Part shown: positions 9,759-29,028 of the stretch, in pieces
Layout: the number at the start of each line of letters is the position of its first letter
Position numbering within the stretch: the first letter of the stretch is position 1
Origin: Planctomycetia bacterium
GTDB lineage: Bacteria; Planctomycetota; Phycisphaerae; Phycisphaerales; SM1A02
Assembly: GCA_005790605.1 (NCBI GenBank)
Contig: SXUI01000009.1
Span: forward strand, 1-48,861
Length of the DNA: 48,861 bases
Direction: 5' to 3'
Program-made: the position numbers and the translations under genes
The notes under the pieces: generated by a model
What the model saw: only the letters and a program-made list of their open reading frames with translations
Databases searched by the model: none
Told to the model about the DNA's origin: nothing

Positions 9759-12731
9759 TTACGGGCACGCGCCCCAAGCGTTGAGCACAGTTGCGAGGTC
9801 AGCGGCGTCCGTTGTGCCGTTGCCATCGAGATCGGTCGCGCCAGATGCGCCCCAACCATTCAGGAGCGACGCCAAGTCCGCAGCGTCGGTGACGCCGTCG
9901 GCGTTGAAGTCGGTGACGCAAGGATTGCTGGTCTTGTCGCAACCAACGCTCACCGCGCCCGGCGTGTCAAGCGTTCCGGCTGCGGCTGGGTCTTGCAACC
10001 CGATCGCCCACGCGGCGCTCGTCGAGCAGTAGCTCACCTGGAACGGTACGGAAGGCGTGGCGCCGGAAGCGTCCGGTCCAATGCGATTCGCGCTGTATGC
10101 CCACTCTGTACCGACCGGTGGAAGAACCTCAGACTCGATCAGAGAGACCGAATCCACGATGTGGGTCCACGGCGTGAAGTCGAGTCCACCATCGTCATCG
10201 ACATCGAGATCCATCCCGATGTTTCCGGTGAACCCGTACACGAGCATGTGCGTCACATTGTCGCTGTTCTCAAAGAGAATGTACGGACTGACCAGATCGG
10301 CGGCTGAAAGCGTGAAGGTCGAGGTACCTGCCACGAAGTATCCACTTGCAGGAATCTCAGTGCAATCGAGGTCGACATAGCACTCGATGACTCCCGAGCC
10401 TTGAACCGCGACACCGTCGCCGATCACAACATAGGTGAATCCCGAGAGGCTCGTGCCTGGTGCGCCCGCCAACTCGAAGTACTCCTGGAGATCAGCTGCC
10501 AGTGCAACATCATCGATGCGAATCTCGTTGATTCGAACCTCTGCGGGAAGCGCATCGGGGTAGCACGAGCAGTTTGCACGATCCGCACACGCTTGATCCC
10601 ACACGATTTCGCAGCACGTCGGGTCAATGGAGCAGACGCTGTCGCAGCAAACCGCATCCGAGCAGCCTGGAGTTGCCACCGCAACGCGGCAGTCAGACTT
10701 GTTCGGCGCACCGCAGGAATTGATCGCTGGGCAGATCGCGCCGGGCGCAAGGCCTGGCGTGTCGTAGCCGGTGAGATCGAATGGATCGTAGTGACCCATG
10801 CGCGGTGAACCATCGGCGCAGCGGAAGAAGTGAGGCGCGAGGTTCGTGCCATCTGGGCCGACGCTCACGGGGGCGTAGGCGCAGTTCACTTCATTGTCGA
10901 GAAGCGCAACCGCATCGATCACGCTCTGCCAGGGAGTGACGTCAAACGTGCAGTCATCGTTCGTGTCGAGGTCATCGCCGACGATGCCTGTGAAGTTGTA
11001 GACGAGGTAGTAGTTCTTCGTGCCTGAGTCGTTGAACGAGAGGAAGCGAAGCGCATCGGGGAGCGCGTCCATGGTGAACGATGCTTCGGTGAGCAGAATG
11101 CGACCGTCCTTCGCGATCGAAAGACCGTTCATGCTCACAGTGGCTTCGATTCTGCCCTGATTCACGCCTGCGTTTTGTGAGGAGATCACGACGAGCGTCA
11201 CGCCGTTGAGCGACGCGCCTGGTGCGCCAGTCAACTCCACATACTCATTGACATCGGTCGCACTGGGATCAGAGACGCGCAGTTCCGCGATTTGCAGTGC
11301 CGGAGCTGGAGCACCGTTGATGCATGCTGTTTGCGCCGTCGTGACGCAGGAGGCATCCCAAGTCGCGTCGCAGCACACTGGATTCACAACACAAACTGCG
11401 TTGCAGCAGTCGATGTCTGCGCAGCCCGGCGTGAGCGCTGCAACAAAGCAGCTTCCCGTTCCAGGTCCGCACGCCGTGCAAACATCGTTTGCGTCACCGG
11501 CCGAATCGCGTCCGAGCGCTGCGCCATCGAAGGGGCCAATCTTCCAAGTGCCTGCGGGGGTGCAGCGGTACGCGTGGCTCGCAACGAAGGTTGTGTCAGG
11601 CCCGACGGTGGTCGTGGAGTACCACCACTCATCGCCGGTCGCGGGAACTCCCGTGTTTGGCTTCACGAGTGCGACAGAGTCGACAACGGCTGTCCACGGA
11701 GTGATGTCGAGCACGCCGTCTTCGTTCGTGTCGAGGTCCTGTAGCAAGGTGCCGGTAAATCCTGAAACCAGGAGGTGAGTCACATTGTCGCTGTTCTCGA
11801 AATTGATCGCTGCAATCGGTCCCACATCCACGCTGCCCGCAAAGACGAGCGTCGCGAGTTTCGAAACGGAGATCAAACCATCTCCGGGGATGGTGTAGGT
11901 GTCGAGCGGCACGACGCACTCAATCACGCCGTTCTTCGTGGTCGCAACGGAGCCGTCGCCGATGACGATGTAGGTGAGACCAGCGAGCGATGAGCCGGGC
12001 GCGCCCTTGAGCTCAAAGTACTCATCCGTGTCGGCGCCGGGGTGGTCGATACGAATCTCGTTGATCACAACAGGCTCTGGCTCGCACAGTCCGTTCGCCG
12101 CGCCAGGCGAATCGATGCCAGCGTATGGATCTTGCGTGCCGACGTTCCACTGCGCGGTGAGTTCGCACTTCCACGAAGAATAGGGAACGAATCCTGCGTC
12201 TGGACCGACGCGATTAAGAGAGTAGACAAAGTCGTCGATGACGCCATCGGCGAGGCCGTTCCACATTGACACGCTGTCGGCGAGGTTAGCCCACGGCAGC
12301 ACATCGAGCGTGCCGTCATCGTTGGTATCGAGATCATCACCAACCGCGCCGGTGAATCCTTGGACGAGAAAAATCGTGACATTGTCGGTGTTCTCAATCG
12401 CGAGTGGCGCGATGAGATCGGGAACCGCAAGCGTCAGGGTTGATTTCGCGCAGACGAAGTACCCGCTCGCAGGGATGCTTCCTCGAAGGGAAATGACTTG
12501 TTCAATCGAACCGTTCTGCGCTGGCGGAAGTTGATTGTCGTCATCGCCAACGATGACGAGGCTGTATCCCTTCAACGAGGTTGCAGCCGGACCCTTCAGC
12601 TCGACGTACTCCTCAGTGTCGCTTCCGGGCTGATCCGCGCGAACCTCATGGAGTGTGACTTGGGCGAAGGAAGTATTGGCGAAAGCCAAACCTGTCGCCA
12701 TGTACAGACAAGCGGGAAGAGCGCGTCGCAT
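9759..12731 (-). CDS. Large secreted repeat protein with Cys-rich modules and C-terminal dockerin-like domain
   Basis: The 990-residue protein has a signal peptide (~residues 1-23). Four related ~190-residue domains follow, at about 24-216, 221-418, 478-666 and 732-929. Each opens like a lamin-tail domain (VVINEIRIDHPGADTDEYFEL and similar) and contains a DLDTN-DDG-x-LD acidic loop followed by PW, resembling a calcium site. Two Cys-rich modules (418-470 and 673-723) share the pattern CC..VC..dP.CC...WD..C. Residues 938-990 form two dockerin-like repeats (DFNADGVTDAADLASLLNGWG and a second copy) ending WGACP, the arrangement seen in Phycisphaerales GC-type dockerin-anchored proteins. It probably acts at the cell surface; no enzyme domain is seen. 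GGAGA lies ~10 bases before ATG 12731. Confidence 0.88.
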   Translation of the reverse strand: MRRALPACLYMATGLAFANTSFAQVTLHEVRADQPGSDTEEYVELKGPAATSLKGYSLVIVGDDDNQLPPAQNGSIEQVISLRGSIPASGYFVCAKSTLTLAVPDLIAPLAIENTDNVTIFLVQGFTGAVGDDLDTNDDGTLDVLPWANLADSVSMWNGLADGVIDDFVYSLNRVGPDAGFVPYSSWKCELTAQWNVGTQDPYAGIDSPGAANGLCEPEPVVINEIRIDHPGADTDEYFELKGAPGSSLAGLTYIVIGDGSVATTKNGVIECVVPLDTYTIPGDGLISVSKLATLVFAGSVDVGPIAAINFENSDNVTHLLVSGFTGTLLQDLDTNEDGVLDITPWTAVVDSVALVKPNTGVPATGDEWWYSTTTVGPDTTFVASHAYRCTPAGTWKIGPFDGAALGRDSAGDANDVCTACGPGTGSCFVAALTPGCADIDCCNAVCVVNPVCCDATWDASCVTTAQTACINGAPAPALQIAELRVSDPSATDVNEYVELTGAPGASLNGVTLVVISSQNAGVNQGRIEATVSMNGLSIAKDGRILLTEASFTMDALPDALRFLSFNDSGTKNYYLVYNFTGIVGDDLDTNDDCTFDVTPWQSVIDAVALLDNEVNCAYAPVSVGPDGTNLAPHFFRCADGSPRMGHYDPFDLTGYDTPGLAPGAICPAINSCGAPNKSDCRVAVATPGCSDAVCCDSVCSIDPTCCEIVWDQACADRANCSCYPDALPAEVRINEIRIDDVALAADLQEYFELAGAPGTSLSGFTYVVIGDGVAVQGSGVIECYVDLDCTEIPASGYFVAGTSTFTLSAADLVSPYILFENSDNVTHMLVYGFTGNIGMDLDVDDDGGLDFTPWTHIVDSVSLIESEVLPPVGTEWAYSANRIGPDASGATPSVPFQVSYCSTSAAWAIGLQDPAAAGTLDTPGAVSVGCDKTSNPCVTDFNADGVTDAADLASLLNGWGASGATDLDGNGTTDAADLATVLNAWGACP
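9945..12662 (-). repeat. Four diverged coding repeats (lamin-tail-like domains)
   Basis: Within the 990-residue protein, copies lie at about 12084-12662, 11478-12071, 10734-11300 and 9945-10538. Each runs from an [IL]xE[IV]R opening strand through EY.EL.G, a GFTG motif, the DLDT..D acidic loop and a closing GPD segment. Copies 2 and 4 are most alike by eye; copy 3 is the most diverged. Cys-rich modules separate copies 2/3 and 3/4 but not 1/2. Confidence 0.8.
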
Positions 12732-20397: not shown

Positions 20398-22734
20398 ATG
20401 TCTTCATTCTCGTCCCCACTCCTTGACCGATTCCAGCGCCGACTGCTGCTTCTTGGATGCATCGGTTGTGTGATGCTGCTGTTGCTCGGCGCACAACTGT
20501 TTCGATTGGCGTTCATCGAGCATGCAGCGCACGCGCAAGAGACGGCGCGATTTCTCACGACACGGCGATTGCTCCCGGCATCTCGGGGAACAATCTATGA
20601 CCGGCGTGGAGAAGTGCTCGCGCGTGATCGCGCCAGTTGGAATGTATTGGTTGACTACGATGCGATCACTGGGCGTTGGGCGGTGAATCGCGCTCGGGCG
20701 CAGGCATTGCAAGAGATCGGCCGCGCCGCATGGTTGGAGTTGAGCCCGCAGCGTCGCACGACCGCGGTGCTGCAGCGGCTCGATGCGTGGGAACAAACAC
20801 TCGAAACGCAGATCTTCGCAGCGCTTGCGAGTGCGGGGGGATTTGAGCGAAGCGAGTTGGAGCGCCGGTTCGATGAAATCGTTGCCCGCGCAGAGCGGCA
20901 AGCGCTCACGCGGCGAGACTCGCTGCGAGAGGCGGCCATTCGTCGCTACGGCGCCGACGCTCGCATCGATGGTCTTGAAGCGGAACTCGTCGCGGCGCAA
21001 CGCGAGTCGCATGTGATTCTTACCGATGTCGGTGATGAGGTCGCGTTCGCGTTCCAGCGGTTGAGTGATGCGTACCCCAAGACGGTTTCGGTGCAGGCGG
21101 CAAGCGAGCGCGTGCGGCCGTGGGAACATGTTGTGTTTGATCTTTCGCGACGCGATTTCGTCTCCCCCGCGCGCCGAGATCAACCGGTGCAGGTCGAACT
21201 GCATGGCGTGCTTGATCACCTTCTCGGGAGCACGCGGACGCAGGTGTTTCCTGAGGACCTCGCGCGACGGAGACTCTTCGCTGAGGGCACAAGTGAAATC
21301 GTCGATCTCGGTGGATACCGCGCTGATCGCGACATCATCGGTTCAAGTGGAATCGAGCGACGGGCGGAAGATCACTTGCGGGGACTGCGCGGAGTCGTAG
21401 AGCGGGATCTTGAGCGCGCGACGGAGTCGCGTCTTGATCCGATTGCGGGCGCGGATGTCACGCTTTCCATCGACATTCGCCTGCAGTCGCGGGTGCAAGC
21501 CCTTTTCTGTGAAAAGTCAGGGCTTGCGGAGATTCAACAGTGGCAGCGAGGTTGGGAACCGGAAGGTTCGCCGCGCGCTGGTCCGCTTCCTGTGGGCTGG
21601 AAACTGAATGGCGCGTTCGTGGTCCTCGATGTGGAGCGCGGCGAAGTCATCGCGGCGGGGAGTAGCCCGACACTTGCGGAAGGGCGCGCGATGGACGCCG
21701 CGCAGCGAGGCGCCGAGCATCCGCAGATTTTTCGACCATTTGAGGGCGCGTACCCGCCTGGTTCGATTCTCAAGCCGCTCATTTTCGCTGCAGCTGCTGC
21801 GGAGGGTGTTGTGCAGCAGGGCGAGATGATTGCATGCAATGGGCACTTCTTCGAAGAGGCCGTGGACAGCGTGCGATGCTGGATTTTTCGCCCGAATGAA
21901 GGACGCAACGGAACGCACGGCGCGCTCGCGGCATCCGAAGCGCTCGCGCGAAGTTGCAACATCTTTTTCTACACGCTCGCGCAGCGACTTGGTCCTCTCC
22001 GACTCGTGCAGTGGATGCGCGCGTTTGGTTTGGGGCGCGCGCTCGATCTCGACTTCGCGGTTGAGCGCGTGACCGAGGATGGAAAGAGTGTGTGGAGTGG
22101 CATCTCCACAGGCTCGCTTCCCGATGAGACGCTGATTGCGGATTGGAAGTCCAAACGAGACCGAACGAGTCCTGTGATGCTCGGCATTGGCCAGGGAGCG
22201 ATGAGTTGGACGCCGCTCCAGGCGGCGAATGCGTTTGCGACGCTCGCTCGCGGTGGTGTTGCGGTGGAGCCGACGGTCATACTTCGCTCGGAGATTCCTC
22301 GTGGCAGTAACCTCAACATTCCTGCGTGGGCTATCGATGCGGCGCTTGAAGGGCTCCGGCAGTCTGTGCGTGAGTCCTACGGGACTGGGCATCATGTGAC
22401 GCTTGAGAACGGGACGAAGGAGCCGCTTTTTGAGATCCCCGGACTGAGCGTGTGGGGGAAAACCGGAACAGCGACCGCATCCTTGCTCTCGCTCGACAAT
22501 GACGCAGATGGCGACACAGACCTTCGCGTACGCACGGATCACGCGTGGTTCGTGGGTCTCGTTGCGCCCCGCGGCGAGCATCCGAGATATGCCGTCGCGG
22601 TGATCCTCGAGCACGGTGGCTCAGGGGGAAAAGTTGCCGGCCCGCTCGCAGCGCAGATCTTTCGTGCGCTCGCTGCTGAGGGTTATCTCCACGCATCGCA
22701 AAGCGCGCCACCGCCTGATCGGAGCCCGAGGTGA
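20398..22734 (+). CDS. mrdA: Penicillin-binding protein 2-type transpeptidase (class B PBP)
   Basis: This is a class B PBP cross-linking peptidoglycan. One N-terminal membrane helix (CIGCVMLLLLGAQLFRLAFI) is followed by ASRGTIYDRRGEVLARD of the pedestal domain. The transpeptidase motifs are SxxK at Ser456 (YPPGSILKP), SxN at Ser519 (ARSCNIFFYTLA) and KTGT at 688-691. YPPGS, the RCW...HG segment and the following rodA gene favour PBP2 (elongation) over FtsI (division), but this is an inference. At 778 residues it is larger than E. coli PBP2 (~630): an extra helical, Arg/Glu-rich region lies at roughly residues 95-300. The start is ATG 20398; the open frame extends to 20302 inside mraY without support. 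It overlaps rodA. Confidence 0.88.
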   Translation: MSSFSSPLLDRFQRRLLLLGCIGCVMLLLLGAQLFRLAFIEHAAHAQETARFLTTRRLLPASRGTIYDRRGEVLARDRASWNVLVDYDAITGRWAVNRARAQALQEIGRAAWLELSPQRRTTAVLQRLDAWEQTLETQIFAALASAGGFERSELERRFDEIVARAERQALTRRDSLREAAIRRYGADARIDGLEAELVAAQRESHVILTDVGDEVAFAFQRLSDAYPKTVSVQAASERVRPWEHVVFDLSRRDFVSPARRDQPVQVELHGVLDHLLGSTRTQVFPEDLARRRLFAEGTSEIVDLGGYRADRDIIGSSGIERRAEDHLRGLRGVVERDLERATESRLDPIAGADVTLSIDIRLQSRVQALFCEKSGLAEIQQWQRGWEPEGSPRAGPLPVGWKLNGAFVVLDVERGEVIAAGSSPTLAEGRAMDAAQRGAEHPQIFRPFEGAYPPGSILKPLIFAAAAAEGVVQQGEMIACNGHFFEEAVDSVRCWIFRPNEGRNGTHGALAASEALARSCNIFFYTLAQRLGPLRLVQWMRAFGLGRALDLDFAVERVTEDGKSVWSGISTGSLPDETLIADWKSKRDRTSPVMLGIGQGAMSWTPLQAANAFATLARGGVAVEPTVILRSEIPRGSNLNIPAWAIDAALEGLRQSVRESYGTGHHVTLENGTKEPLFEIPGLSVWGKTGTATASLLSLDNDADGDTDLRVRTDHAWFVGLVAPRGEHPRYAVAVILEHGGSGGKVAGPLAAQIFRALAAEGYLHASQSAPPPDRSPR

Positions 22735-23912
22735 TGGGCGGGGTTGGACCTGCGTCGCTGTTCCGTGGCACGAGCGAAACGGGACGAAAGCGGTGGAGTC
22801 TCGCGACCTTCGCGTGGTTGTCGGTGATCGCCGCGATTGGACTGAGTGCGATCGGAATCAACGCCATTGCATTGACCCGTCCGGAGCTTGCCGCACGCCA
22901 AGGAGTTTTTCTTCTCGTCGGGATTCTCGGCGGAGTCCTCGCAGTCATCCCGCAACCGCGATTCCTTCGCGTCGCGTGCTGGGGGCTGTGCGCTGTCGTC
23001 CTCGGTCTGCTCGTGTTCGTACTCCTTCCGTTCGCGCCAGCGTCCCTCGTCACGCCGCGCAACGGCGCGCGCGCGTGGATTGCGCTTGGTGCGTTCGATC
23101 TGCAGCCAAGCGAACTCGCAAAGATCGCATTCATCCTTTGTTTGTCGCAGTGGCTCTCGATCCGCGCGAGTCCTCGCAGCGTGCGAAGTTTGGTGATTCC
23201 CGTCCTGCTCTTCCTCGTGCCTGTTGGTTTGATCGTGCTTGAACCAGACCTCGGGAGCGCGCTCCTCTTTGGTCCGACGCTGCTCGCCATCCTGATTGCA
23301 TCAGGAGCGAGATTCGGACATCTTGCGTCGGTCCTCGTTGTCGCGGCGTGCCTTGTCCCTGTCGCGTACTTCACGGTCCTCAAGCCGTATCAGCAGGCGC
23401 GGATCGATGCCATCATCGCGCAGGTCCGAGGAGACACTCGCTTCGAGAACGACATTGGCTTTCAAGGCTGGCGAGCAATGCGCCTGGTTGGCACTGGGGG
23501 CGTGTTCGGCAATGAGGCTTCGCACGCCAAAGCGCTCGTCAAACTGAACGCGTTGCCGGAGGAACACAACGACATGGTGTTTGCGGTTGTGTGCTGCCGG
23601 CATGGCCTCGTCGGCGGAGCGCTTGTGTGGCTTCTTATGACGCTCTATGCGGTTGGGGCGCTGCTCGTTGCGGCCAGTGCGCGCGATGGATTTACCAAAC
23701 TTGTCGCCGTCGGCATCGGGGCCATTCTCTTTGCACAGACTTTCGTGAACACGGGGATGACGATCGGAATTCTCCCGATTACGGGCGTGACGCTGCCATT
23801 TGTGAGTTATGGAGGCTCGAGCCTCGTAGCATCATGGATCATGACAGGCGTCCTGTTTGGGCTTGGGTTTCACCGCGTGCATGGCGGTGAGAAAGACCGA
23901 TTTGATGAGTGA
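22731..23912 (+). CDS. rodA: RodA/FtsW-type SEDS peptidoglycan polymerase
   Basis: SEDS proteins polymerise glycan strands from lipid II and work with a partner class B PBP. The 393-residue protein has about ten membrane segments. Family motifs are NGARAWIALGAFDLQPSELAK, EPDLGSALL, LPEEHNDMVFAVVCCRHGLVGG (the essential Asp is probably Asp281) and NTGMTIGILPITGVTLPFVSYGGSS. NIGMTIGLLPITG-type wording is typical of RodA, fitting the preceding PBP2 gene. The first codon GTG (22731) overlaps the mrdA stop; an ATG follows immediately at 22734. The stop overlaps the start of rsmG by eight bases, so the three genes are coupled. Confidence 0.9.
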   Translation: MMGGVGPASLFRGTSETGRKRWSLATFAWLSVIAAIGLSAIGINAIALTRPELAARQGVFLLVGILGGVLAVIPQPRFLRVACWGLCAVVLGLLVFVLLPFAPASLVTPRNGARAWIALGAFDLQPSELAKIAFILCLSQWLSIRASPRSVRSLVIPVLLFLVPVGLIVLEPDLGSALLFGPTLLAILIASGARFGHLASVLVVAACLVPVAYFTVLKPYQQARIDAIIAQVRGDTRFENDIGFQGWRAMRLVGTGGVFGNEASHAKALVKLNALPEEHNDMVFAVVCCRHGLVGGALVWLLMTLYAVGALLVAASARDGFTKLVAVGIGAILFAQTFVNTGMTIGILPITGVTLPFVSYGGSSLVASWIMTGVLFGLGFHRVHGGEKDRFDE

Positions 23913-24741
23913 GTTCCATTTTCCCAACGGCCATTCGCAAAGGTCTGCGCGCGCGGCGGCGCAGCCGAGTGGGGCGCGTCCGGGCAACCGCGGTGCCCAG
24001 GAGTCCGAGGGCGATCGCCTCCGCGCACGCGAGGAAGAGCTCACCGAGTGGTTGCGTTTTGCGCCTCCGCCGGAACCTATTCCTCGGGACCCCGCGACGA
24101 TTGAACGGTTGCGTGAACAGGGGATTGAACTCGAGGAATCGGAGCTCGAATTGCTCGAACGGTACCTGGGCTTGCTCTTCGCGACCAATGCACGGTTCAA
24201 CCTGACGGCGATCACGAAGGAAGATGCTTGGAACCGGCATGTGCTCGACTCTCTGAGTCTCCTTCCGCCGCTCGATGCTCTTGAAGTGACACGCGCGATG
24301 GATCTCGGATCAGGGGGCGGATTGCCAGGCATTCCGCTCGCGATATGCCGCGGCGACATCCATTGGACGCTCCTTGAAGCCACGGCGAAGAAGGCGCGCT
24401 TTCTGCAGGCGGTGGCCGACCATCTTGGCTTGTCGAATGTCACGGTGCTCCACAGTCGTGCTGAGGCGACCAAGCAGAACGGCATCGTGGAGGAGCTCGA
24501 TGTGGTGGTCGCGCGTGCGGTTGGCGCGTTTGGCCCGCTGGCACAGTTAGCGGTTCCCTATCTTCGCATCGGTGGAGTCATGCTCGCGATCAAAGGGCTC
24601 AAGGCCGAGGAGGAAGTCATTGAGGCCAAGGCGCGACTCCATGCACTTCATGCGCAAGTCATCAATCAGATTCGCACCCCGACCAACACGATCGTCGTGA
24701 TGGAGAAGATGCGAAAGACACCCGCGAAGTATTTTCAGTGA
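23905..24741 (+). CDS. rsmG: 16S rRNA (guanine-N7)-methyltransferase RsmG
   Basis: RsmG methylates N7 of G527 of 16S rRNA using S-adenosylmethionine. Motifs seen are RFNLTAI..EDAWNRHVLDSL, the SAM-binding AMDLGSGGGLPGIPLA, LLEATAKKARFLQ, VVVARAVGAFGPLAQL and GGVMLAIKG. The 278-residue protein has an N-terminal extension of about 70 charged residues before the conserved domain, longer than E. coli RsmG (207). The start ATG at 23905 overlaps the end of rodA; an upstream in-frame ATG (23857) lies deep within rodA and is less likely. It is the last gene of the mur cluster and is convergent with the next gene, seven bases away. Confidence 0.92.
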   Translation: MSEFHFPNGHSQRSARAAAQPSGARPGNRGAQESEGDRLRAREEELTEWLRFAPPPEPIPRDPATIERLREQGIELEESELELLERYLGLLFATNARFNLTAITKEDAWNRHVLDSLSLLPPLDALEVTRAMDLGSGGGLPGIPLAICRGDIHWTLLEATAKKARFLQAVADHLGLSNVTVLHSRAEATKQNGIVEELDVVVARAVGAFGPLAQLAVPYLRIGGVMLAIKGLKAEEEVIEAKARLHALHAQVINQIRTPTNTIVVMEKMRKTPAKYFQ

Positions 24742-25914: not shown

Positions 25915-28900
25915 TCAAGGCACTGGGACGAGCGGATCGTTCACCGCGAGATCGATGAGGTCGTACCACGTCGCGTACTGCTTCACATTGCCGAGTCCGA
26001 GCGTGTAGAGGCGAACCACGAACTCGCCGTCTGGACCGACATAGTTGTCGTAGCCAAGGTAGCCAGGCACGGTGAAATTCATCGTGGAGTCGGCCGTTCC
26101 GAGGACTTGATTCCCGATGTACATGTTGCGACGATTGACGTGGTCATACATGTACGCAATCATCATCACGGGGGTGCGGGTCGTCCTTGCAACGATGTCA
26201 AGCCGCAGGTCGTAGATGTTGCCGACATCTCCAACCGTGTTCGGCGCTCGGCATCGAACATCTGTCGTCCACCCCGTCCCGAGGTACGTAAAGCCTTCGA
26301 CGCGAGTTCCTTGATTCATGCGCGTCGATACAACCTTGTTGTAGCTGAGATCCTGAGCGCGAATCTTGAAGTTCGTGATTGGCGGTGTCCCCGTGCCAGT
26401 CAGAATCTCAAAGCCCATCTGATCGCCGTCATAGAAGCCACTCGAGAGAATGGAGTAGGCGCTATCGATGGAGTTGGGGAAGTTGTTGATGACCTTGAAG
26501 AAGCAGTCGCAATCATTTGGATTGCAGCCATCGGGTGTTTGGCAGCAGAAGTCGCCGATGTTGGCGCCCTCAGCTTCCATCGACCGACTCACGTCGCACT
26601 GAGGAGCGCCGGTCAAAGAAGAGCGCATCTGTTCGGGCGTAATAGGGGCGCCGTACAGTTGCTTCGCCCAGCCTTGGAGGATCGCAACCATGCCTGACAC
26701 GGTCGGAGCAGCGGAACTCGTTCCGTTGAACGCGCTCGTGTAGGTCCGAAGCATGTTGTCTTCGTTGGCGTCGACTCCGGTGGGATCGTTCGCGCCTCGG
26801 AACAGCGCGCCGTAGCCAGTTGTGCAGACTGCGGTGCCCCATCCGAAGCAGTGCACAGCACCGTTCTCAGCATCTGGATTCGTGTAGTTGCTGAACGACT
26901 GACGGACATAGCTCAACATGCAGCACTGTCCTGGTGGGTGGTACTCACCACCTGCGCCACCAGCGCCAACGATGATTGCACCAGTGTCAAACGGCGCATC
27001 GGCAATCGCCATGCCGTCGTTTCCCGCGGAGCAGCACTGTGTGACGCCAAGGTCAGACCCAACTCGCACAAGTGTTGCGAGTGGCTCGAGGCGATCCATC
27101 GGACCGATGCCCGGGTAACCCCACGAGTTGTTGACAACATCGCCTGGGCCGAAGATCTCCCAACAGCTCGTGAGGGCGTTCTGCGAGCGACCGCCCTCTT
27201 CCACACTCACGATGGGGAAGAAGTAGCCTTGCGCGTTCTTCGCGATACCAGTTACGCCGAACTGGTTTTCTCCAGCGACGATTTCGCCGAGCGTTGCGGT
27301 GCCGTGCTGGGGCTCATTTTCTGGCATCAACACAATGGTCTGATCGGCTTCGGGAATCACGCGTGGAATCGTGTAGCTCGGACCAGAATCAACATTCGCC
27401 CAGAGCGCCGGATCGGCGGGATCTGTCGGGACGCCTGAGCGCACAAACTCCTCGTGCTTCACGAAGGCCGCGAACTCAATCACTGCCACTTTGGAGCCCT
27501 CGCCGTAGAGCACGGCTGGCATGCCACCTTGGTAATAATCAGAGAACTGTTGTTGCCAAGTTGCCATGCCGGTCAGATTGAATCCACGACCGTTGAAATT
27601 CCCAAGCCCCGTCCAAATGTTGTTTGCGGGATCCGCGAATCCATCCTCCGGAACAACGCGCGAAGAGAGGTAGAACTGAGCGCCGCCTTCGAGCGCACCT
27701 GTCGCTGGGAAAGGGACATAGTTGTTTGGAGTTGGTCCCGCGACAGCATTTCCTACGCATGCTGGTGTATTGACTGCAAGCGCAACGCAGGAAGAATCCC
27801 AACCAGCCTGACCATTGCAGCAGGTCGGATCGACCAAGCAGACCGCCGCGCAGCAACTTGGTTGGCTGCAACCAGCACCACCGTGCGGTTCAAAGCAGAG
27901 ACCCTGCTGGATGTTATTGATGACGAAAGATGGCCAAGCAACCGGATCCGCGGGAACGCCAGGCGCGCTCCAATCCGGACCAATGACGGACGCAGTTCCT
28001 GGGAAATAGCCGGTTTGAGCAGGAGCAGTCTGTGGCTCTGGGCAGCTCCAACCGCCGCCACCATCACAGATGCCATCTGGTGTCTCTGCGCGGAGCAGGA
28101 ACGAAGTGAAGCAGGCGTCGTAACGCTCATATGCCGCCAACTGAGGATTCGACGCGGGATCGTAGATCTGACCAATGCACTGGAGATTCGCGATGGCTGC
28201 GCAGAGGAAGTCCCAACCACGAGGAGAGGTGTCGTCTGTGCAGGTTGGGTCAACGGTTCCGACCAGGTTGCAGCAGCCGGCATCCGCACAGCCATAAAGT
28301 GGATTCTGACCACCCGGATCAGGATTGCAGTTGAAGTAGCGCGGATCGGGGCACGCAATGTTTGGTTCATTGCAAGTCACCGGATTCATCGGGTCGCAGC
28401 CTTGCTGATGCACAGCAGGCAGCGGATCGATGCTCGTCCACTCCACGACGCCGAGTGCTTGGAATGCGCGCGCGGCCTCAAGCAAGCGCTCTGCTGGGAT
28501 GTTGTCGACTTCAACAATGCTCGCGAGATCTGGCTGGTGTCGTCCGCTGTAGTTCTCCGCGCGAATTTCAATCGCTCGAAGTCGCGCAGGGCTCTTGTTG
28601 ATCCACTGACGAATCGTTCCCTTGTGCTGTGCAAGGATCTCTGTGACTGCTTGCATGTCGGCGCCGGCGAGCGACGCGACTTCGCTGCTGTCTCCCTGTG
28701 GCGCGCGAGCGACGAGTTCATCGTTGAACTTCACGATGATCTTGCCGGTGAGCGGAAGGAGTTCTCCGGTCACACCGTGACGGGGAAGGACGATTTCTTC
28801 TACGAGCTTCTTTCGAGCACGGACGCGCGGCGCGAGGCCGAGTTCATCCACGTCGCCACCATTGGTGCTCGCTGGCGGAATCGCCATCGGCGTTGGCGCA

Positions 28901-29028
28901 GCCTTCGCTGCTTCAAGTCCGATCCCAAATGCCGCGACAAGCGCAAGCGTCAGGTTGATTGTGGAGACTCGGTCGAAGCGCGAGACGCGAGTTGCGAGCG
29001 AACGGATGTTCGGAAGCAGAGAGGACAT
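25915..29028 (-). CDS. Secreted subtilisin-family (S8) peptidase with Cys-rich modules
   Basis: The 1037-residue protein has a signal segment (INLTLALVAAFGIGLEAAKA), a probable propeptide (TGKIIVKFNDELV...VVEWTSIDPLP, ~94-205), two Cys-rich modules (~247-284 and ~387-424) with the CC..v..vDPtC....WD..C pattern also found in the 990-residue secreted protein, then an S8 domain (~505-800). Catalytic positions are Glu518 (VAVIEFAAF, normally Asp), His575 (QHGTATLGEI), oxyanion Asn634 (NNSWGYPG) and Ser771 (NGTSSAAPTVSG). The last ~190 residues form a beta-rich domain without a recognisable anchor. Activity is uncertain because of the Asp-to-Glu change. AGGAG nine bases before ATG 29028 supports the start. 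It probably degrades or processes extracellular protein. Confidence 0.87.
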   Translation of the reverse strand: MSSLLPNIRSLATRVSRFDRVSTINLTLALVAAFGIGLEAAKAAPTPMAIPPASTNGGDVDELGLAPRVRARKKLVEEIVLPRHGVTGELLPLTGKIIVKFNDELVARAPQGDSSEVASLAGADMQAVTEILAQHKGTIRQWINKSPARLRAIEIRAENYSGRHQPDLASIVEVDNIPAERLLEAARAFQALGVVEWTSIDPLPAVHQQGCDPMNPVTCNEPNIACPDPRYFNCNPDPGGQNPLYGCADAGCCNLVGTVDPTCTDDTSPRGWDFLCAAIANLQCIGQIYDPASNPQLAAYERYDACFTSFLLRAETPDGICDGGGGWSCPEPQTAPAQTGYFPGTASVIGPDWSAPGVPADPVAWPSFVINNIQQGLCFEPHGGAGCSQPSCCAAVCLVDPTCCNGQAGWDSSCVALAVNTPACVGNAVAGPTPNNYVPFPATGALEGGAQFYLSSRVVPEDGFADPANNIWTGLGNFNGRGFNLTGMATWQQQFSDYYQGGMPAVLYGEGSKVAVIEFAAFVKHEEFVRSGVPTDPADPALWANVDSGPSYTIPRVIPEADQTIVLMPENEPQHGTATLGEIVAGENQFGVTGIAKNAQGYFFPIVSVEEGGRSQNALTSCWEIFGPGDVVNNSWGYPGIGPMDRLEPLATLVRVGSDLGVTQCCSAGNDGMAIADAPFDTGAIIVGAGGAGGEYHPPGQCCMLSYVRQSFSNYTNPDAENGAVHCFGWGTAVCTTGYGALFRGANDPTGVDANEDNMLRTYTSAFNGTSSAAPTVSGMVAILQGWAKQLYGAPITPEQMRSSLTGAPQCDVSRSMEAEGANIGDFCCQTPDGCNPNDCDCFFKVINNFPNSIDSAYSILSSGFYDGDQMGFEILTGTGTPPITNFKIRAQDLSYNKVVSTRMNQGTRVEGFTYLGTGWTTDVRCRAPNTVGDVGNIYDLRLDIVARTTRTPVMMIAYMYDHVNRRNMYIGNQVLGTADSTMNFTVPGYLGYDNYVGPDGEFVVRLYTLGLGNVKQYATWYDLIDLAVNDPLVPVP

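Follow-up and report, generated by a model that had tools for sequence, protein, structure and literature searches.

A ten-cysteine module reused among apparently secreted proteins of Planctomycetota and myxobacteria, and its possible role as an extracellular scaffold or spacer

A stretch of 48,861 nucleotides from a Planctomycetia bacterium (contig SXUI01000009.1), hereafter the window, encodes an apparently secreted protein of 990 residues and an S8 peptidase of 1037 residues, and each carries two copies of a cysteine-rich module. Judged from sequence, this module is a cysteine-packed block of about 50 residues that recurs in many apparently secreted proteins, either alone or in arrays whose copy number reaches 18. 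None of the domain libraries searched has an entry for it, and it constitutes a new family. We hold, with a confidence slightly above even, that it serves as a disulfide-locked extracellular scaffold or spacer shuffled between secreted proteins.

Identification of the module in the two window proteins

A test hidden Markov model (HMM) was built without the window copies, from the 33 source-genome copies outside the window that scored at least 25 bits (35 copies lie outside it). The four window copies scored 45.1, 43.7, 29.4, and 40.7 bits with this model, while the top score among 4000 shuffles (2000 per window protein) was 9.7 bits. Chance and plain cysteine richness were hence rejected as explanations, and because the profile scores far exceed those of the shuffles, all four copies were assigned to one ten-cysteine family. 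An earlier note on this DNA had proposed that the module occurs twice in each of the two proteins, and the scores bear this out. The cysteines were numbered C0 (in the preceding linker), C1 (in SC), C2 (in GC), C3 and C4 (the first CC), C5 (in VC), C6 and C7 (the second CC), C8 (in WDxxC), and C9 (at the end). The module of about 40 residues described in the note is a real unit, which extends with its linker to about 54 residues and ten cysteines; the coordinates in the note agree with the module cores and differ in the linker part. The motif it quoted, CC..VC..DP.CC...WD..C, is not matched literally by the S8 copies.

The 990-residue protein (9762–12731, reverse strand) is composed of a signal peptide assigned by eye, four repeats of about 200 residues, the two modules, and a dockerin-like C-terminus. 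Its first module and linker cysteine occupy 11316–11477 (core 11322–11453, residues 427–470; 45.1 bits), and the second with its linker 10557–10718 (core 10563–10694, residues 680–723; 43.7 bits), both on the reverse strand. Both retain all ten cysteines, as they are absent from the list of copies with losses. The S8 protein (25918–29028, reverse strand), identified by its Peptidase_S8 match, carries its modules ahead of the catalytic domain (26614–27321, reverse strand, residues 570–805; Pfam Peptidase_S8, 7.9e-16). These copies fall short of ten cysteines and are divergent members by profile. The copy at 28177–28308 (reverse strand, residues 241–284; 29.4 bits, 2.6e-8) is without C1, C5 (the VC cysteine), and C7 (the latter cysteine in the second CC), and four additional residues precede its WD. 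The copy at 27757–27900 (reverse strand, residues 377–424; 40.7 bits, 2.4e-13) is without C0, retains C4, and has two additional residues before WD.

Predicted fold, conservation, and disulfide pattern

AlphaFold prediction for copy 11316–11477 with 150 aligned copies gave a predicted local distance difference test score (pLDDT) of 92.0 and a predicted template modeling score (pTM) of 0.74, in which helices were located at 22–31, 34–37, and 42–52. The module is hence modeled as a confident three-helix fold. For a three-module stretch of locus L066, these helices were repeated three times together with a short linker helix, for which the pLDDT of 88.1 with a pTM of only 0.55 indicates a well-defined structure for each bead but not for the arrangement of the beads relative to one another. 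The note had considered that the four segments might have different folds; the models of copy 11316–11477 and the L066 stretch gave one confident fold, which covers one of the four window copies. The conserved columns comprise the cysteines, W40, V28, A48, and some glycines and prolines, as well as aspartates at 21, 32, and 41, ahead of the helices, and they fit a structural role. Histidine at column 14 is kept in 56% of copies, and 30 of the 53 columns exhibit an entropy of 2.5–3.9 bits.

No Pfam-A family matched the module regions of the two window proteins or of eight source-genome hosts, and no NCBIfam model was found for the module. DUF4215 (Pfam) and TIGR02232 (NCBIfam) each matched one of 62 hosts, without a position relative to the module being given. 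None of the families matched by these hosts is known to represent the module. A sequence search of the PDB yielded only chance aldolase matches (E 0.6), and a fold search of it with Foldseek yielded nothing for one module or for three; this does not prove a new fold, because Foldseek performs poorly on chains of such small length. The fold search of BFVD gave three matches, all with E above 5. A description of the module was not found in the literature searched, whose scope left out most subscription journals. Cysteine-rich repeats have been described in eukaryotes, in a placozoan lysozyme (PMC12855814) and in rusticalin, whose repeats were likened to a tick carboxypeptidase inhibitor (PMC6339383).

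Paired cysteine losses support the proposed pairs C0–C4, C1–C2, and C5–C7. Among 272 distinct copies scoring at least 15 bits, C7 was missing in five of five C5 losses (6 C7 losses; p 5e-10), C4 in nine of 11 C0 losses (32 C4 losses; p 7e-8), and C1 in nine of nine C2 losses (29 C1 losses, some of which are alignment slips by eye; p 5e-10), where the p values treat the copies as independent though they are not. A reduced set of 259 copies, from which eight loci (myxobacterial, deltaproteobacterial, and L090) were omitted, gave 5/5, 8/10, and 3/3 for C5/C7, C0/C4, and C1/C2, respectively, and an independent alignment of 273 copies gave 5/5, 12/17, and 5/6. The remaining pairs, C3–C9 and C6–C8, are putative and derived largely by elimination. 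C3 and C9 were lost together in 10 of 13 C3 losses under strict alignment, and C6–C8 follows by elimination, since C6 was never lost and the sole C8 loss is a copy truncated by the locus end.

Several observations weigh against this pairing, in addition to the non-independence of the copies. It is derived, as a whole, from cysteine losses and elimination. The C3/C9 co-loss is only 4 of 13 once C9 may shift, and C3 was lost with C4 in 10 of 13 C3 losses (6/9 in the reduced set). Other co-losses that do not fit are C1/C4 (13), C2/C4 (6), and C0/C3 (4). C0 is lost and C4 kept in the window copy at 27757 and in one L074 copy, and 23 of the 32 copies without C4 still score C0 under the script rule. 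A further point, against a disulfide-locked module in general, is that Pfam detected DsbB in the source genome and neither DsbA nor VKOR. As for their origin, the unfitting co-losses come largely from the CVC subtype and myxobacterial copies, and several of the C0 scored without C4 are, by eye, a displaced C9 or a signal-peptide cysteine.

The CVC subtype, which has a cysteine two residues before C5, was observed in 30 of 303 copies (L034, L054, L062, and many of L090–L106). C4 is absent from all of these (30/30), C3 from 26/30, and an extra cysteine usually stands beside C1 (27/30). The pairing of this subtype must differ. Several myxobacterial copies have, by eye, eight cysteines from C1 to C9, as expected without a C0–C4 bond, and more cysteines often flank their core. 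The extra cysteine beside C1 was found in 95/303 copies overall. For planctomycete copies, a cysteine within six residues past C9 was present in 0.97 of the 64 with the extra C1-side cysteine versus 0.71 of 195, an association confounded because the post-C9 residues in arrays hold C0 of the next unit. A further bond from the extra cysteine is possible.

Host proteins, arrays, and distribution

The profile search of the source genome detected 39 module copies in 11 reading frames. Two copies each are in the window proteins, 17 in the C52 frame, five in C46, four and one in the two C21 frames, three in C67, two in C77, and one each in C27, C55, and C76. The note had envisaged many secreted proteins with different catalytic domains and, as the refuting case, matches limited to the window proteins. 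The latter was not seen, in view of these 11 frames and the other genomes; many apparently secreted proteins were found, some of them with different catalytic domains (S8, M12 reprolysin, M43, and trypsin). Two further candidates, C21:24221-24349 (E 0.15, not recovered by profile) and C21:26045-26128 (E 1.3), were dropped as chance. The C46 protein is an M12 reprolysin, a C21 frame of 666 residues contains GBD_T9SS_assoc domains, and the 17-module C52 frame (21402–24419, L031) gave no Pfam match. The frames of C27 and C21 both reach contig ends that share protein sequence, and they may have been split from a single gene. At C76:167071-167202 (L035), a long module-protein frame was observed with a single in-frame TAG inside the module, which may reflect either a sequencing error or a genuine nonsense mutation.

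Signal peptides, which were judged by eye and in source-genome frames only, appeared to be present in 10 of the 10 frames with a readable N-terminus, where the S8 protein was the least typical; the 666-residue C21 frame is truncated at the contig end, and its N-terminus is unreadable. Dockerin_1 was above the cut-off, by hmmscan or with in-frame neighbors, in seven of the 11 frames (the 990-residue protein, C46, both C21 frames, C55, C77, and C76 beyond its TAG). It was below the cut-off in C67 and absent from the S8 protein, the C52 protein, and the cut C27 frame. The source genome contains at least 69 Dockerin_1 matches at E ≤ 0.01 among the best 150 of 174 candidates, which far outnumber the module proteins. 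Cohesin (PF00963) gave no match in this genome at E ≤ 1, though a divergent cohesin could escape; a control search gave matches in 2 of 14 genomes, one of them above the cut-off. Since no Pfam cohesin was found, the dockerin-like domain may not use its classical partner, and such domains may here be sorting tags rather than cohesin partners.

A host survey was performed with Pfam (E ≤ 0.001) on 62 module proteins, that is, the two window proteins and 60 from loci L047–L090. Altogether 17 families were matched, including GBD_T9SS_assoc in 11 proteins and Dockerin_1 in only five. S8 (the window's own), reprolysins, M43, trypsin, C-type lectin, HYR, PPC, MAM, beta-helix, FG-GAP, and DUF4215 were found in one host each, and most of the 62 proteins have no recognized catalytic domain. 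The trypsin host is a 352-residue protein of a deltaproteobacterial metagenome-assembled genome, whose module is located at the C-terminus. A loose D-x-D-x-D-G-like pattern was present in the last 75 residues of 32 of the 60 locus proteins, a count made with no control. The module is located at the N-end, middle, or C-end with 1 to 18 copies per protein, and in loci of myxobacteria and deltaproteobacteria a single copy often lies at the very C-terminus. A neighborhood in which a four-copy protein of about 500–650 residues stands beside frames holding one to three modules recurs in L047–L049, L053, L058, L063, L068, L072, and L081.

Unit-by-unit collinearity was observed at offset 0 among the 17-module arrays from the source genome, L061, and L066, and at offset 1 between the source array and that of L055, which has 18 modules. 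The observed value was reached by 0 of 500 permutations for the source array versus L055, L061, L066, and L040, as well as for L061–L066, L055–L066, and L061–L040. It was reached by 1 for L066–L040, 2 for L055–L061, 5 each for source–L041 and L066–L041, 16 for L055–L040, 24 for L061–L041, 145 for L055–L041, and 231 for L040–L041, where L040 and L041 are stretches of about 3 kilobases with partial arrays. The array frames of L055, L061, and L066 have an N-terminal region added relative to the C52 protein. A region similar to the 200-residue repeats of the 990-residue protein precedes these arrays (tblastn in L055, by eye in the others), and dockerin-like motifs also occur in frame ahead of them.

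The module was found in 165 of 181 genomes and 43 of 45 genera of the source-organism family, counting the best 40 copies per genome. From the phylum, 392 genomes were drawn evenly, and the best 18 candidates per genome were scored. A match was obtained in 10 of these genomes, which comprise nine of the 10 drawn from the same family (source included) and one from elsewhere. The latter match (G315; E 8.4e-4), in a 56-residue frame with three TGA, looks spurious and was rejected. A consensus query against GTDB genomes, the search that covered phyla beyond Planctomycetota and that of Polyangium, gave 44 loci: 30 with planctomycete titles, five myxobacterial (Polyangium, Enhygromyxa, and others), three deltaproteobacterial, one proteobacterial, and five unassigned. 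The four myxobacterial genomes behind these loci hold 3 to 18 copies each. In the phylum of a Polyangium genome, 49 of 188 genomes (Polyangium included) were positive, and three of them have at least 35 copies. The planctomycete-only distribution implied by the note was hence rejected. Among viral contigs, 11 stretches matched the peptide pattern, and none was confirmed as the module.

Regarding the other parts of the 990-residue protein, its four repeats of about 200 residues (9939–12659, reverse strand; coordinates set by hand on the repeat alignment) lie at 12084–12659, 11478–12071, 10731–11297, and 9939–10538, the third being between the two modules. They exhibit 34–46% identity to the first repeat. 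The N-end of these repeats, including the first, resembles a lamin tail domain by eye only. There was no Pfam match at E ≤ 1 and no lamin tail among the PDB matches at E ≤ 1, and a lamin-tail identity is hence not supported. Stretches similar to the repeat were also observed in L050 and ahead of the L055 module array. The dockerin-like C-terminal domain (9780–9914, reverse strand) scored 20.3 bits with Dockerin_1, passing the cut-off only with its in-frame neighbors (24.4 bits); hmmscan gave 15.3 bits against a cut-off of 22.9, and no NCBIfam model matched. Relatives of this protein in L046 (451 identities over 914 aligned residues) and L045 (375/788) both carry the two modules at matching places. 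A relative of the S8 protein with two modules was found in L043, of which the second aligns globally and the first only in a local match. The S8 protein has, by eye, glutamate (VAVIEFAAF) at the expected position of the catalytic aspartate and normal-looking histidine and serine motifs, so that this peptidase may be unusual or inactive.

Function of the module and comparison with known systems

The scaffold or spacer role fits best because free placement and copy number are combined with structural conservation. The module would be a small, independently folding domain, in which three short helices are tied by up to five disulfides (read as C0–C4, C1–C2, C3–C9, C5–C7, and C6–C8). A single module would act as a bead or spacer, keeping catalytic, lectin-like, and other domains at a distance from each other and giving them protection, and repeated modules would be strung into a stalk. 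Anchoring, where present, would more likely be provided by the separate dockerin-like domain. Secretion (from signal peptides assigned by eye), oxidation of the cysteines, and the spacer or scaffold role itself are all inferred. A point against this role is that the variable surface would also suit a binding scaffold. As the main alternative, the module might be a recognition unit, whose constant disulfide core presents a variable surface to glycans or proteins, and whose arrays bind polymers by avidity. The free variation of 30 of the 53 columns, the identity kept between genomes by the units of the 17-module array, and hosts with lectin and galactose-binding-like domains point this way. No conserved binding surface was found, however, the conserved non-cysteine residues are readable as structural (perhaps not the column-14 histidine), and the array collinearity is explicable by plain descent, which makes recognition a tentative reading, well short of even. 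A shade more doubtful is the stronger proposal of an uncatalogued family with a new, mainly helical five-disulfide fold in Planctomycetota and Myxococcota, acting as a recognition scaffold in which each of the 17–18 units has its own specificity.

The surface-attachment or sorting domain proposed in the note is improbable in our estimation. By eye, the 10 source-genome frames whose N-terminus is readable appear to be secreted, and the C-terminal single copies in myxobacteria and deltaproteobacteria retain some room for it; however, position and copy number (1 to 18 per protein) are free. It is further weakened because a separate dockerin-like match is present in seven of the 11 frames and elsewhere in the genome, where such matches outnumber the module proteins. 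Many small tandem disulfide domains act as peptidase inhibitors or propeptide-like regulators. Such a function would suit the peptidases among the hosts, and the S8 copies (residues 241–424) precede the catalytic domain; yet most of the 62 proteins are without a peptidase domain and no conserved exposed loop of the inhibitor type was seen, so that we give it only a slight chance. About ten cysteines within about 54 residues could also suggest a metal-binding or redox cluster. This is very improbable, as the clearest losses are paired in the manner of disulfide partners and the proteins look secreted.

With this assignment, many unannotated and apparently secreted proteins gain a domain, both in myxobacteria and in a large planctomycete family represented mainly by metagenomes. 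A testable disulfide pattern and a ready annotation profile are provided as well. In the accessible part of the literature, the closest system in use is the stalk of myxobacterial TraA (Myxococcota), though its repeat is different. TraA is likewise secreted, with a ligand-type domain and a cysteine-rich repeat region; these repeats (TIGR04201) were proposed to form a rigid stalk, and sorting is assigned to a separate C-terminal tag (PMC3325183). The TraA repeat has three invariant and two marginally conserved cysteines according to the same paper, and TIGR04201 matched none of the 62 module proteins (E ≤ 0.01) or the window proteins (E ≤ 1). The Nemodlikiaceae "planctosome" model (PMC6461901) similarly involves secreted planctomycete proteins, whose domains include dockerin, lamin-tail, and M12B reprolysin. 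It differs in that the cysteine module is not described in its main text, from which the word "cysteine" is absent, and in that the source genome has dockerin matches and no Pfam cohesin match. The GC-type dockerin (NCBIfam NF041540) matched four of the 62 module proteins and neither window protein, and by its name describes a dockerin-type anchor, not the cysteine module. The cysteine-rich acidic repeat of bacterial proteins, myxo_disulf_rpt (TIGR02232), matched the single module protein mentioned above. Animal EGF, WAP, and LDL-receptor A modules are short, disulfide-locked, shuffled, and arranged in tandem. The present module is apparently used in a similar manner, although it is predicted to be helical and has no sequence or fold match in the PDB. 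This suggests that bacteria too have built a shuffled, disulfide-locked extracellular module, which is used like the EGF- and WAP-type domains of animals.

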